From: Teredinibacter turnerae T7901
GTDB taxonomy: Bacteria; Pseudomonadota; Gammaproteobacteria; Pseudomonadales; Cellvibrionaceae
Length of the DNA: 64,000 nt
Assembly (NCBI RefSeq): GCF_000023025.1
Contig: NC_012997.1
Span: 2,849,125-2,913,124 of the forward strand
Direction of reading: 5' to 3'
In this document: positions 33,442 through 59,356 of the stretch, one piece after another
Layout of the letters: every line of letters starts with the position of its first letter
Numbering within the stretch: position 1 is the first letter of the stretch
Program-made: the position numbers and the translations under genes
Notes under the pieces: model-generated
What the model was told of the DNA's origin: nothing
Databases searched by the model: none
What the model saw: the letters and a program-made list of their open reading frames with translations, nothing else

Positions 33442-34293
33442 ATGCCCGACGAACCTCATATAGTCAGGCGCGGCGAGCTGGATGTTATCCAAATAGATAA
33501 CGCCGCTTGCAGCGCCGAAATAAGTTTATTCGGTGGCCATGTATTGCAGTGGCAACCTTCTGGAAGAAAACCTGTTTTGTGGATGAGCGATACCGCGCGC
33601 TACGACGGATCTACCGCACTGCGCGGCGGTATTCCGATCTGTTGGCCCTGGTTCGGTGCGGTGGCAGACAAAGGCCGCCACGGCCTGGTGAGAAATCGCA
33701 ACTGGCAAGTGACCCATTTCGAAGACTCGGCCACCGCGACCTTCGTGGAACTGGAGATTGACCTGAGCGAAACCGACAACCCATGGCCGCACCCGAACAA
33801 GCTGGTCATGAAAGTGAATTTTGGTGAATCTCTACTGCAATCCTTGCTGGTTGAAAACACCGGCGACAAGCCTCAGTGCTTCAATTTCGCCTTTCACAAT
33901 TACCTTAAGGTAAGTAACCCCGCAGCAGTGGAGATTCCATTGCTCGGTAGCTCCTTCTACGAGGACAAGCTGACAGGCCAGCAGCAGCAACTGGAAAATA
34001 GAGATACCGAACATTTAGGGTACCTAGGGCCATTGGATCGAATCTATTCCAGCAGCGAGCGAATAGAAGTGATCGACCCCCAGTACGCCCGCAAAATCTG
34101 TATCGATAAACAACTGTCCCAACATTGGGTTGTGTGGAACCCAGGCAGCGATGCTGCGAGCATGGATGATGTCCACGAAAGCGGCGAACAGGAGTTCCTG
34201 TGTGTGGAAACAGCCAACACCAGCGACATCGTGATCGAGCCTGGTGAGAGAATCAGTATGTCGCAAACCATCTCCCTGGAAAATCTTGGCTAG
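33442..34293 (+). CDS. D-hexose-6-phosphate mutarotase (YeaD-like)
   Basis: The 283-aa cytoplasmic enzyme belongs to the aldose-1-epimerase fold and interconverts anomers of hexose 6-phosphates. Conserved elements are FGGHVLQWQPSGRKPVLWMS, LRGGIPICWPWFG, HGLVRNRNWQV, FNFAFHNYLKVSN with the catalytic His, and QEFLCVETANTSD with the catalytic Glu near the C-terminus. Its stop codon TAG is part of the CTAG that borders the MITE immediately downstream, so the element inserted exactly at the end of the gene without visible damage. Confidence 0.93.
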   Translation: MPDEPHIVRRGELDVIQIDNAACSAEISLFGGHVLQWQPSGRKPVLWMSDTARYDGSTALRGGIPICWPWFGAVADKGRHGLVRNRNWQVTHFEDSATATFVELEIDLSETDNPWPHPNKLVMKVNFGESLLQSLLVENTGDKPQCFNFAFHNYLKVSNPAAVEIPLLGSSFYEDKLTGQQQQLENRDTEHLGYLGPLDRIYSSSERIEVIDPQYARKICIDKQLSQHWVVWNPGSDAASMDDVHESGEQEFLCVETANTSDIVIEPGERISMSQTISLENLG

Positions 34294-34638
34294 GGCCTGT
34301 TAACACTAATTCGATTCATTCTATTGCGGCTAAAATTTCGCTATCGAGTGATGCGGCACCCCGACGTTTGGAGTGCAGGTTGTTCGGCATATCCCTATGC
34401 CTCACCCCTACGGGGTTACACGCTAAAACGCTCCCGGCGTTTTAGTGGTTGTTCCAAATGAGCGATAAACAACGCTGAGAGCGGGATTTTAGCCGCAACC
34501 CGCAGGGCTGGGCCTGTATTTCCAGGCTGATGCGTTATTTTTCGCTCGTTTAGCCCGCTAAACAACGCCAAAAATGCCTTTCATCCTGAAAATACAGGCT
34601 CCAGCAGAGCGAATTGAATTAGTGTTAACAGGCCCTAG
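34290..34638. mobile_element. MITE-like element, copy A
   Basis: A 341-bp body (34294-34634) lies between two CTAG sequences (34290-34293, 34635-34638). Its ends are inverted repeats beginning GGCCTGTTAACACTAATTC, 19 bp without a mismatch. It has no ORF of note. It is a near-identical reverse complement of 50486-50826. The interior holds several hairpins, for example CACCCCTACGGGGT, GGCATATCCCTATGCC and GTTTAGCCCGCTAAAC. CTAG flanks and absence of coding capacity fit a non-autonomous relative of IS5-group elements. Confidence 0.9.
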
Positions 34639-34890
34639 GACAATTCACGAACGTACTCCCCTCGCAAATCTTACTGGTGCCGCGCCTGCGGCACTCCGGA
34701 GAAGAGTTTGATTTCCCGCTTGTACCCACACTGCCGCTAAAGCTCTTCCCCTCCTCGCCATGCGAATTTTTGGTGACTGCATCAAATACCCTTGCATTTA
34801 GTGTCAATTTTTCCCAGACCCCACGCGACAGCCTTCAACGCCGTTGATTTCCATCAAGTCGGATAACGCGCGCTGACTTAGACTATTTTT
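34639..34890. other. Intergenic region upstream of the HemN-like gene
   Basis: About 250 bp with no credible gene. Its right end contains a perfect FNR/Anr box and a candidate -10 element for the next gene. Confidence 0.5.
34844..34857 (+). promoter_or_regulatory. FNR/Anr binding site
   Basis: TTGATTTCCATCAA is a perfect match to the FNR/Anr consensus TTGAT-N4-ATCAA. Its centre lies about 40 bp upstream of the ATG at 34891. A candidate -10 (TAGACT, 34879-34884) is placed as expected for a class II promoter activated by an FNR-type regulator, and the anr-like gene lies just downstream. The predicted transcription start falls at or next to the ATG. Confidence 0.85.
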
Positions 34891-35730
34891 ATGCAAACGA
34901 ATGAACCCAAATCCAATATTTCTGAACACCCGACGCTGCGCCGACATACCAAAATTTCGGCGTTTGAAGCAGCTCGCGTCCTGGAAAAATACCGCCTCCA
35001 CCCAAGCCACTCGGTGAGCATTTGTATGGATGGGCACGCCTTCAGGTGGGCGCGTACAAATCCGCAAGCGGCAGGTGCCGGAGCGCTACTCACAAAAGAA
35101 ATAAAACTGTGGGCTGACGCCGTCGGGCATAAATCAGTAGAGAATCTCTTACTGTGCTACCCCTTCCAGTCCTTTGAGCCTTACGAGTTAACCGGAATTA
35201 TGCATGCGTTAGCATCTCACTTTGGACTCTCAGAGTCCGAGCAGCGCGTGCACCGAGTGGTAACCCATCAGGATGAAGTCAACAGTGACCACATCGCCCT
35301 GTTGAAGGGCTTGGGTTTCAACCATTATCAGATCGCTCTCAACCGGAGTGACCTCGAAGACTTGGATAAGTTAAAAGCCGTTGGGGACTTAATCCGGAAG
35401 TACGCGTTTACCGGAATGAGCATTCAGATCCACGACTCAAACTGTCTGGATGACCTTCGTGAACATGTTATCGAGGTCAAACGGATGATTGCGCCTGACT
35501 TTATTTATATCGGCAACCGCCCCAAGCTGATCGACAACGACCTGAGTGCAAACGGCGGGATTCTGTTCGATGGCGAATGCGAACTTGAAAACAACTGCAT
35601 TTACATGGGGCTGGAGGGCAAAAGCCACTTACAACATATGGTTTTACAAAATTTTTGTACGCAAAATCGCTACCTGGAGGCACTGCAAGAAGGGAAATTA
35701 CCGATAAATCACGGTCCAACACACGAATAA
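34891..35730 (+). CDS. HemN-like protein lacking radical-SAM cysteines and the C-terminal domain
   Basis: The 279-aa product aligns by eye with the core of oxygen-independent coproporphyrinogen III oxidase. SVSICMDGHAFRW takes the place of the HemN strand and cysteine loop; then LLTKEIKLWADAVGHKSVEN, ELTGIMHALASHFGLSESEQ and HIALLKGLGFNHYQIALNRS follow in HemN order. The CxxxCxxC motif that binds the radical-SAM cluster is missing, the GGGTP motif is replaced by CYPFQSF, and the protein ends before the HemN C-terminal region. It cannot be a normal radical-SAM enzyme. The perfect Anr box and the position before anr resemble known hemN-anr loci. A regulatory or binding role is inference. No ribosome site precedes the ATG. 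Confidence 0.75.
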   Translation: MQTNEPKSNISEHPTLRRHTKISAFEAARVLEKYRLHPSHSVSICMDGHAFRWARTNPQAAGAGALLTKEIKLWADAVGHKSVENLLLCYPFQSFEPYELTGIMHALASHFGLSESEQRVHRVVTHQDEVNSDHIALLKGLGFNHYQIALNRSDLEDLDKLKAVGDLIRKYAFTGMSIQIHDSNCLDDLREHVIEVKRMIAPDFIYIGNRPKLIDNDLSANGGILFDGECELENNCIYMGLEGKSHLQHMVLQNFCTQNRYLEALQEGKLPINHGPTHE

Positions 35731-35795: not shown

Positions 35796-35801
35796 TATAA
35801 T
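35796..35801 (+). promoter_or_regulatory. Candidate -10 element of the anr promoter
   Basis: A perfect TATAAT occurs 36 bp before the anr start codon. No good -35 hexamer is found at 16-18 bp, so the assignment is tentative. Confidence 0.35.
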
Positions 35802-35836: not shown

Positions 35837-36577
35837 ATGCCGCAGTCTATTGCCAACCATCAGTGCCACCACAATCCTCAAGTTAACTGTGCCGATTGCC
35901 GTCTCGCATCTATTTGCCTGCCAATCAGCCTGCATATTGACGATATAAACAAACTTGACGACATTATTCAGCGAGGGCGACCGGTACAAAAGACCGACCA
36001 TGTCTACCACGCCGGAGAATCCTTTCGTTCGGTCTACGCTTTGCGGTCCGGAGCGGTCAAAACCGTGAAGGTGACCCATGATGGCCAGGAACAAGTAACC
36101 GGCTTCTACCTACCGGGCGAAATCATTGGTATGGACGGCCTCGCGTCGAACCATCACACCAACTCAGCCATCGCACTGGAAACATCCGCAGTATGTGAAA
36201 TTCCATTTACCCGACTCGAAGAGCTGAGCGCACAAGTTCCCAATCTTCAGCGCCGCTTTTTTCAGTTGATGAGTAAAGAAATAACACACGAGCAACAGCT
36301 AATTACGCTACTTAGTAAGAACAGCGCTGATGAGCGCATCTCCTCCCTGTTGCTCAGTATTTCTACACGCAACCACAACCGTGGCCTGTCTGCAAAAGAG
36401 TTTTACCTTCCCATGTCGCGATCCGACATAGGTAATTACCTCGGCTTAACAATCGAGACGGTCAGCCGGGTACTCAGTCGTTTACACAAGCAGGGCGTGA
36501 TTACGCTGGATAAAAAACACGTAATCATTTCTGATCTGGACGCATTAAAAGGCGTCGCCTCAGTCTCTATCGACTAA
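35837..36577 (+). CDS. anr: Anr/FNR-type oxygen-sensing transcription regulator
   Basis: The 246-aa Crp/FNR-family regulator senses oxygen with a [4Fe-4S] cluster. The N-terminal ligands are in NCADCRLASIC (C-x2-C-x5-C) and the fourth Cys is in SAVCEIPF. A cNMP-like beta barrel (HAGESFRSVYALRSGAVKTV, GFYLPGEIIGMDGLAS) precedes a dimerisation helix and a C-terminal HTH: FYLPMSRSDIGNYLGLTIET, VSRVLSRLHKQGVI, whose E…SR residues read TTGAT half-sites. It probably activates the HemN-like gene upstream. The DUF4202 gene overlaps its stop by one base. Confidence 0.96.
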   Translation: MPQSIANHQCHHNPQVNCADCRLASICLPISLHIDDINKLDDIIQRGRPVQKTDHVYHAGESFRSVYALRSGAVKTVKVTHDGQEQVTGFYLPGEIIGMDGLASNHHTNSAIALETSAVCEIPFTRLEELSAQVPNLQRRFFQLMSKEITHEQQLITLLSKNSADERISSLLLSISTRNHNRGLSAKEFYLPMSRSDIGNYLGLTIETVSRVLSRLHKQGVITLDKKHVIISDLDALKGVASVSID

Positions 36578-37173
36578 TGCAGACACAAGATCCAGCGCTG
36601 GGTGCGGCACTTCGCTCAATCGATGCCGCCAATGCAAAAGACCCGAACCTTGAGGTAAACGCAGAAACTGGCCAGCAGCAACCGAAAGAACTGCTCTACG
36701 GACAGCGTATGACCGAGCAACTTGCTGAATTTTGCCCTGAAGCGTCGGTTCACCTTCAAATTGCTGCTCGCGCGCAACACATCGAGCGCTGGACATCGCC
36801 GCGCTCCGCCTACCCTGAAGGTCGTGCTGGCTACAAAAAGTGGCGCTCGGAGCTTTCCCTCTTCCATGCAAACCGCGCAGCAGAGATCATGTCAGAATGC
36901 GGCTTTAACGAAAAAGATTGTGAGCGAGTAAAGTTCCTTATTCAAAAAAGGCAACTGCGGAGAGACCCGGAAACCCAAACCCTTGAAGATGTCATTTGTC
37001 TGGTGTTCCTTAAGCACTACCTCGAAGATTTTGCCAATAAACACGCAGAAGACAAACTCATCGACATTATCCAGAAAACCTGGAACAAAATGTCCGAATC
37101 TGGACACCAAGCCGCTCTCGCCCTGCCCTACAAACCACACCTCGGTACATTAATAAACAAAGCCCTCAGCTAA
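36577..37173 (+). CDS. DUF4202 protein
   Basis: A 198-aa soluble protein fitting DUF4202: ALRSIDAANAKDPNLEVN, KELLYGQRMTEQLAEFCPEA, LQIAARAQHIERWTSPRSAY and YKKWRSELSLFHANRAAEIM. The invariant His-rich and Arg-rich helices resemble HD-type or related helical enzymes, but no activity has been assigned. Its ATG overlaps the anr stop (TAATG), implying coupled translation, and the SirB2 gene begins 1 bp after its stop, so the three form one operon. Confidence 0.9.
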   Translation: MQTQDPALGAALRSIDAANAKDPNLEVNAETGQQQPKELLYGQRMTEQLAEFCPEASVHLQIAARAQHIERWTSPRSAYPEGRAGYKKWRSELSLFHANRAAEIMSECGFNEKDCERVKFLIQKRQLRRDPETQTLEDVICLVFLKHYLEDFANKHAEDKLIDIIQKTWNKMSESGHQAALALPYKPHLGTLINKALS

Positions 37174-58156: not shown

Positions 58157-59356
58157 TTATTGCACCATTTTCACAGGAATGATGTCGTTTCCTGTAGCGA
58201 GTAAAGCGGCCTGATCCAGCTTGTAACGCTGACTGCGCTTAGTCCTGTCGTTAACCTGACCTGCCAGCTGACCACAGGCTGCGTCAATGTCGTCGCCGCG
58301 CGTGGTGCGCACCGTTGCGGTATAACCCGCATCAATCAATATCTGCTGAAAACGGCGCAACGCGTTATTACTCACCTTTTTATAGTTAGATAACCCGAAC
58401 GGGTTAAAAGGTATGAGGTTAATTTTAACCGGCACATCTTTCAACAGTTCGACCAATTCATGCGCGTGTTCTATGCGGTCGTTCACTTGATCGATTAATG
58501 TGTATTCGATGGTAATTTTACGGTGCGCATCCGGAAGCCCTTCAATATAGCGCTTGGCAGAAGCAAGCAATTGCGCAATCGGGTATTTTTTGTTGATCGG
58601 TACCAACTGGTTTCGCAGCTCATCGTTCGGCGCGTGCAGGGAAATTGCCAGGCATGCATCGGTGTATTTGCCCAGTCGATCCAGCTGCGGCACCACACCC
58701 GATGTACTCAACGTAACGCGACGCTTGGATATGCCGTAGCAGTTGTCATGCATCATCAGGTGCATTGCTTCAACGACGTTCTCGAAGTTGAGCAACGGCT
58801 CGCCCATGCCCATGAGTACCACGTTAGTGACTTTTCGGTCTCCTCGTGCCCCGCCCTCTTGGAGCTGGCCAAAGGATTTCGCCGCGATCCAGACTTGCCC
58901 GATGATTTCATCAGACGTGAGATCGCGGTTAAAACCTTGTTTGCCCGTTGCACAGAAGCTGCAATCCAGGGAGCAACCGACCTGAGACGACACACACAGG
59001 GTGCCGCGCTCACCATCCGGAATAAATACCGTTTCGATCGCGTTGCCGCCACCCACGCGTATAAGAAACTTGCGCGTGCCGTCGGTAGAGTCCCACTGCT
59101 CTATCACTTCAGGAATGCGCACTTCCGCGATGTCGGCTAAACGCTCACGGAGCGCCTTGCTGATATTGGTCATTTGCGCGAAATCGGTAACACCCAGCTG
59201 ATGCACCCATTTCAACACCTGAGTTGCGCGAAACTTCTTCTCGCCCAGAGATTCAAAAAACGCTTCCAGACGCCCTTGAGACATACCGAGAAGGTTTACC
59301 TTGGCCGCATCGCCAACGATTTCAACAGCGTCAACTGCGCTCACATCTGAACTCAC
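58157..59356 (-). CDS. rlmN: Dual 23S rRNA/tRNA adenine-C2 methyltransferase RlmN
   Basis: A radical-SAM enzyme that makes m2A2503 in 23S rRNA and m2A37 in tRNAs. The 399-aa product carries the cluster motif [20 protein letters not shown] (CxxxCxxC) near residue 132, [20 protein letters not shown] and the second catalytic Cys in [15 protein letters not shown] near the C-terminus. The start is GTG at 59356, with GAGG about 11 bases upstream. It follows ndk by 18 bp. Confidence 0.97.

Follow-up and report, generated by a model that had tools for sequence, protein, structure and literature searches.

The gene directly upstream of anr in Teredinibacter turnerae T7901 encodes a 279-aa protein that lacks the iron-sulfur cluster motif of HemN. 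Its core shares common descent and fold with HemN, the oxygen-independent coproporphyrinogen III oxidase, and the catalytic residues of that enzyme are lost. The frame, the place and the promoter of the cluster-less gene are conserved in the Cellvibrionaceae. On balance, we favor the interpretation that the product is an Anr-induced HemN pseudoenzyme, catalytically dead, made from a leaderless mRNA and acting by binding.

The features discussed here are listed in Table 1. They lie in a stretch of 64,000 nucleotides, called the window below, of the T. turnerae T7901 genome, which is a single contig of 5.19 Mb. A preliminary description of this DNA had reported that the gene adjoins anr directly, and the gene recognized by model NF008365 does begin 106 nt downstream of it. 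The DUF4202 gene that follows also accompanies anr at 11 of the 14 loci compared in relatives. Between a YeaD-like gene and the promoter of the cluster-less gene sits a 350-bp element of a MITE-like family. It has six near full-length copies in the genome, the one in the window included, with 99-100% identity. A shorter variant is present in many copies, and 93 matching pieces were counted in the genome overall.

Table 1. Features of the window and the evidence on which each is based (position 1 is the first nucleotide of the window).
Feature	Position	Strand	Evidence
Mobile-element-like sequence, 350 bp	34290-34638		33-nt terminal inverted repeats, 91% complementary
FNR/Anr box TTGATTTCCATCAA, perfect	34844-34857	+	direct sequence
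-10-like hexamer TAGACT	34879-34884	+	offset repeated in relatives
Gene for HemN-derived cluster-less protein (predicted HemN pseudoenzyme)	34891-35730	+	intact ORF, 279 codons plus stop
TATAAT, possible own -10 of anr, inside the 106-nt gap	35796-35801	+	sequence and gap comparison
anr (Fnr/Anr regulator)	35837-36577	+	NF008365, 286.7 bits (cut-off 228)
DUF4202 protein gene, after anr	36577-37173	+	PF13875, E 1.6e-78
Radical-SAM gene	58454-58990	-	PF04055, 64.6 bits; 400-aa frame

The relationship to HemN is not visible in the single sequence. Searched alone, the 279-aa protein gave no match at E≤1 to a HemN model from either Pfam or NCBIfam and none to a relevant PDB sequence, so the likeness can be seen only by profile. 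Its match to PIG-L (E 0.021) was below the cut-off and was taken as chance. When a profile of 11 short forms was aligned with one of 14 HemN sequences, hhalign gave a probability of 98.4 and an E value of 8.3e-15 over 212 columns, in agreement with the HemN-like core of about 200 residues described earlier. Searched against PDB sequences at E≤1, the 11-form profile did not recover E. coli HemN (1OLT), and its sole match was NocN (0.39). With a profile of 17 members, 1OLT was matched at 9.1e-30 and NocN, a methylase resembling HemN, at 1.4e-7; these members include six long forms, of which L108 and L110 are close to HemN.

Structure prediction leads to the same protein. An AlphaFold2 model built from eight sequences, including three long forms of which two are close to HemN, reached a pLDDT of 84.0 and a pTM of 0.83. 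Foldseek placed 1OLT first for this model (E 8.4e-10; next best 7.2e-5). The influence of the long rows was removed in a second model built from four short sequences only. It had a pLDDT of 73.8 (the five models ranged from 73.8 to 43.8) and nearly identical elements, and 1OLT was again first (E 8.6e-9). TM-scores to 1OLT, normalized by query length, were moderate (0.63 and 0.61), with rmsd values of 7.0 and 9.2, which may be expected for a partial barrel.

The long cluster-less forms provide a bridge to HemN, since they match TIGR00538 and the short forms do not. Three long forms among 58 relatives matched this model with E values of 4.2e-31, 1.4e-29 and 7.6e-10, and the window protein had no match at E≤1. 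One of the long forms, L012, scored 109.6 bits, against a cut-off of 324.95. L110, in which two cysteines are lost, still scored 337 bits, so a score alone is no proof of activity. Identity is 28-44% for the more distant short forms and about 20% for the intermediate and long forms, and the protein diverges fast.

Residues were compared between 25 cysteine-intact HemN proteins and 30 of the 32 cluster-less members from the Cellvibrionaceae. The near-identical copy of G004 and the broken gene of G164 were left out, and L108 and L110, which belong to other groups, were shown apart. C62, C66, C69, H58, G112, G113, T114, R184 and D209 occur in all 25 HemN proteins and in none of the 30 cluster-less members. 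E145 occurs in 25 of 25 HemN proteins and seven of the 30, Q172 in 24 and one, and Q311 in 24 and two. The CxxxCxxC motif, present in every HemN compared, is absent from the window protein and from all 30 aligned members, none of which has GG.TP either. The window protein reads C-Y-gap-P-F at the GGGTP position. At E145, Q172, R184 and D209, the SAM-binding residues of HemN, it has V, N, a gap and Q. The catalytic residues of HemN named in PMC10964404 are Y56, H58, G111 and G113 together with the cysteines; the first four correspond to C, D, C and a gap in the window protein.

Whole segments are missing as well. E. coli HemN residues 8-15, 61-73, 176-184, 236-281 and 365-451 (segments of at least eight residues) have no counterpart in the window protein. 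Segment 61-73 is the CxxxCxxC loop and 365-451 is the C-terminal domain. Correspondingly, PF06969 (HemN_C) was not found in the window protein, and two of 17 members match it at E≤0.1. The three losses claimed in the preliminary description (cluster motif, GGGTP and C-terminal domain) thus all stand, and pieces from inside the barrel are missing in addition. The cluster ligands are absent and the SAM site is lost, so HemN-type radical-SAM chemistry should be impossible. Membership of the window protein in HemN (TIGR00538) was rejected on the cluster motif, GGGTP and the catalytic and SAM-binding residues.

What remains is scaffold. E70, L137, G140, L141, F143, G240 and Y261 are found in all 30 members and A136 in 29. 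The scaffold residues E92, F164, G325, N339 and Y346 (E. coli numbering) are kept in 28 to 30. The window protein also resembles HemN in the order of elements of its partial barrel, in its Anr box and in its place beside anr.

The gene does not stand alone. Of 58 relatives searched first, 18 had a match, 15 of these being family members and three ordinary HemN. A survey of 144 Cellvibrionaceae genomes, combined with inspection of loci, identified at least 32 carriers in at least 11 of 32 genera; these are the carriers among the matches listed, part of the loci were opened, and weakly matching members may be missing. Of the 32 carriers found, 13 have a long form (about 400-490 aa) and 19 have a form that is short or intermediate (about 265-330 aa), a number that includes the broken G164 gene. 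In all 32, anr follows the cluster-less gene directly and in the same orientation, and at least one TTGA-N6-TCAA sequence occurs between 420 bp above and 260 bp below the start of the frame. The preliminary description had asked whether relatives keep the gene, the box and the absence of the cysteines, and these carriers do. It had also named a broken frame in close relatives as evidence against its reading. Such a break was found once: the frame is open in 31 carriers, and in G164 (L137) the gene is split over two frames. The G164 genome is 90% complete and 5% contaminated, and the split may be a real break or a sequencing error. The other 112 genomes of the family have no copy among the matches listed, so the gene is dispensable there.

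Among the 58 relatives, a canonical HemN passes the TIGR00538 cut-off in 13 of the 15 carriers, the exceptions being G021 (99% complete) and G024 (68% complete). G021 has a long cluster-less form, HemF and no HemN above the cut-off, so a working HemN is not always found beside the cluster-less form. The genome of the window has a canonical HemN (C1:1975422-1976765), HemF (C1:46947-47825) and a separate HemW-like match (G000:C1:233856). Replacement of HemN by the cluster-less gene is not favored, given that this genome has both HemF and HemN. The nearest perfect TTGA-N6-TCAA upstream of its canonical HemN is about 3 kb away, and a one-mismatch site lies at about 700 bp.

Class II FNR sites consist of TTGAT-N4-ATCAA centered near -41.5, together with a -10 element. 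The promoter of the cluster-less gene has the order box, 21 nt, TAGACT, 6 nt, ATG. The box is perfect, as had been claimed: TTGATNNNNATCAA occurs once in the 64-kb window, at the position of the box in Table 1, and 100 dinucleotide shuffles gave a mean of 0.04. Taking the A of the ATG as +1 puts the center of the box at -40.5, and TAGACT is at the fitting place. The arrangement of box, TAGACT and ATG is exact in seven genomes of the genus (L001-L007); in an eighth, G002, the box differs. In the genome of the window it occurs a single time, even with up to three mismatches allowed. The position of the box center, the fitting -10 hexamer and their conservation are features of a class II FNR/Anr promoter. 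Taken together, the box, its spacing and its conservation suggest that the gene is controlled by Anr.

The ATG lies at the expected start of transcription in most of the shorter forms. The distance from box to ATG is 47-49 in 18 of the 19 short and intermediate forms (the exception is G059) and in none of the 13 long forms. At the usual offset, two of the 18, G013 (L011) and G156 (L136), show nothing that is convincing as a -10; L011 has an additional, nearer ATG. When genomes of the genus are compared, conservation of the amino acids begins with the very first codons, which indicates that this ATG is in use, and the mRNA should therefore be leaderless. The mRNAs of these 18 forms are probably leaderless.

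Cysteine-intact hemN genes linked to anr are mostly arranged differently. Among 25 such loci, a strict FNR-like box is present in 12 and the leaderless spacing in two (L168 and L175). In L168, L175 and L017, all cysteine-intact and anr-linked, the ATG comes 47-49 nt after the first base of the FNR box, and the genes appear leaderless. A leaderless arrangement as a general trait of anr-linked hemN was rejected, these three being the only cysteine-intact cases found. The core Anr targets of Pseudomonas include hemN, which there adjoins anr or lies one gene away and is described as downstream of anr (PMC6588701).

Substitution rates were examined in the 15 pairs listed for this gene. Between the genome of the window (G000) and G004, dN is 0.012, dS is 0.559 and dN/dS is 0.022, and this low ratio rests on one pair because the other 14 are saturated in synonymous sites. 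In the same pair of genomes dN/dS is 0.004 for anr, 0.053 for the DUF4202 gene and 0.052 for the YeaD-like gene. The ratio is 0.258 between L110 and L168 and 0.267 for an intact pair; anr in those pairs gives 0.152 and 0.219. Ratios of this size speak against decay, and also against a role that is purely in cis.

The origin of the gene was approached through wider surveys. A survey covering 390 genomes from the order supplied 27 new top loci (L153-L179). All 27 lie directly upstream of anr, although anr linkage played no part in their choice. Of these, 26 are HemN with an intact CxxxCxxC (L158 lacks GGGTP by pattern), and the exception, L153, is identical to L110 and probably comes from the same assembly. 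ALL[KR]GLGFN is present in 23 of the 27 and ALLKGVGFN in two of the remaining four, counts that are biased because the profile used for the choice rewards ALL[KR]GLGFN. The motif also occurs in the cluster-less members from the Cellvibrionaceae (A136 to N144). At the level of the class, 369 genomes were surveyed, and three had matches at E≤1e-45: the genome of the window, L188 (same order) and L189 (another order). Both L188 and L189 are cysteine-intact HemN.

Phylogenetic reconstruction places the long cluster-less forms apart from the canonical HemN group. In a first quick tree of 48 rows, which contained the window protein, the HemN sequences all fell on one side (SH-aLRT 95). A careful tree, of 52 rows, drew on 16 of the 27 top loci; 12 rows present in the earlier set were omitted, these being the short and intermediate forms, the window protein among them, and the divergent L064 and L065. 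In this tree a canonical group (98/97) contains all 12 unlinked HemN, the genome of the window's own HemN among them, together with six of 26 anr-linked HemN and no dead form. The dead long forms from the Cellvibrionaceae form one group (100/100); the fork at which this group joins the remaining anr-linked HemN is unresolved, and the tree program gave a long-branch warning there. An origin as a duplicate of the genome's own HemN is not favored, since the canonical group excludes the dead long forms; the long branches make this exclusion less than certain. The motif, the position and this fork suggest that the most likely source is the anr-linked HemN lineage.

Cysteine loss is not confined to the Cellvibrionaceae. 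L110 and L153 nest next to cysteine-intact L168 (100/100), which implies at least two losses on the careful tree. L110 (4602-6005), from another family, has lost two of the three cluster cysteines and kept one, its frame is open (468 aa), and it shares leaderless spacing with L168, its cysteine-intact neighbor. L108 (4662-6071; HTCC2143), also linked to anr, keeps CxxxCxxC and has lost GGGTP, Y56, H58 and R184. It is a third, partial case and possibly an intermediate on the path toward a dead form. G022 (L064) carries a further diverged anr-linked HemN without GGGTP. An extension of the argument to the whole order is offered tentatively and is less likely than the reading for T. turnerae itself. 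Under it, hemN wired to anr would repeatedly have been converted from enzyme to regulator: the cluster would be lost while the Anr promoter and the ALLKGLGFN surface are kept, giving an oxygen-responsive pseudoenzyme, encoded by a leaderless mRNA, that tunes heme synthesis or Anr.

Several known systems resemble the cluster-less protein in part. Cysteine-intact, anr-linked HemN from other families of the order shares the ALL[KR]G[LV]GFN motif and the place directly upstream of anr (26 of 26), and a strict FNR-like box is found at about half of its loci. It differs in keeping the cluster motif and full length and in its rarely leaderless spacing. NCBIfam names PsgB (TIGR04419) a 'HemN-related non-iron pseudo-SAM protein', which by the name of the model alone is the same kind of protein, and a HemN-related pseudo-SAM kind is therefore already known. 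Membership in PsgB was rejected, as the window protein gives no match at E≤1 and none of the 58 relatives exceeds the cut-off; judged by score, the anr-linked cluster-less family appears distinct from it. The window protein likewise does not match the HemW model TIGR00539 at E≤1. Titles and the opening parts of abstracts returned by a literature search included no paper on a selected cluster-less HemN, and no series of anr-linked cluster-less HemN bearing Anr boxes was found among them.

The favored interpretation can be set out as a sequence of events. The ancestor would have been a HemN copy directly upstream of anr, as in many relatives of the order. In the Cellvibrionaceae the [4Fe-4S] loop would have disappeared from this copy along with the SAM-binding residues, the chemistry presumably being retained by a separate canonical HemN encoded at another place in the genome. 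As oxygen falls, Anr would bind the box as a class II activator, and transcription would start at the A of the ATG to give a leaderless mRNA. The protein would keep a partial TIM barrel and act by binding instead of catalysis. Because frame, fold and place are kept, the protein should bind something. A protein partner is favored because the conserved columns are those of the scaffold and of the ALLKGLGFN turn, which is common to anr-linked intact HemN, and because no His, Cys or Met column reaches 75% among the 30 members (the best are H105 and M104, 22 of 30). Our best guess at the role is that the protein serves a partner, as adaptor or regulator, either in heme synthesis at low oxygen or in the Anr response.

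The main rival would be a tetrapyrrole chaperone or sensor, in which the barrel binds coproporphyrinogen, protoporphyrin or heme and passes it on or reports it. Descent from HemN speaks for such a role, and so does the precedent of two HemN relatives, HemW and CgdH2, that act on heme as chaperones (PMC10320005). CgdH2 of Campylobacter binds heme, receives it from ferrochelatase and has no oxidase activity, but it retains the cluster motif that the window protein lacks (PMC10320005). The HemN active-site positions hold varied residues in the cluster-less members, and no His, Cys or Met ligand is universal, which lends no special support to the binding of a tetrapyrrole precursor that the preliminary description had raised. 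We consider this role rather unlikely.

The thing selected might instead be the Anr-driven promoter, with read-through into anr giving positive autoregulation and the protein being a by-product ORF. Box and place are kept in every carrier while the protein shrinks, and gaps between gene and anr are mostly about 55-240 nt. In the window, a scan of this gap found no terminator-like site on the + strand and no sigma-70-type promoter, for which the search pattern also requires a -35. Against this, several relatives' gaps contain a TATAAT-like sequence that could serve anr alone, the dN/dS of 0.022 speaks for selection at the protein level, residues are conserved along the protein and its fold is well predicted. 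Taken as the whole explanation, read-through is improbable; it could also occur in addition to a function of the protein.

A new, non-radical enzyme activity may have evolved in the HemN barrel, TIM barrels being often re-used as a matter of general knowledge. CLDDLR and NHYQ, near strand ends, are new residues in most short forms, but these residues are not kept across the family and part of the barrel is deleted, which leaves this alternative quite improbable. Slow decay of a redundant hemN copy, to which the graded loss of residues and length, the broken frame of G164 and the many genomes without a copy would be suited, is hardly credible with 31 of 32 frames open despite deep divergence, dN/dS far below 1 and promoter spacing and motifs exact in seven genomes. 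The preliminary description had reached the same view of decay from the intact frame and matching promoter, and its core reading, a HemN-derived protein that lacks the radical-SAM residues, in the hemN position by anr with an Anr-type promoter, is upheld by the profile and fold comparisons, the open frames and the low dN/dS of the one unsaturated pair.

Few descriptions seem to exist of radical-SAM enzymes on which selection continued to act after their cluster was lost. In the present case the steps from intact HemN, via dead forms of full length, to a remnant of 279 aa can be seen in living species at one genomic place, next to the regulator that should control the cluster-less gene. With such a series, experiments can address why a dead metabolic enzyme is retained, and whether the supply of heme at low oxygen has a regulator that has been missed.
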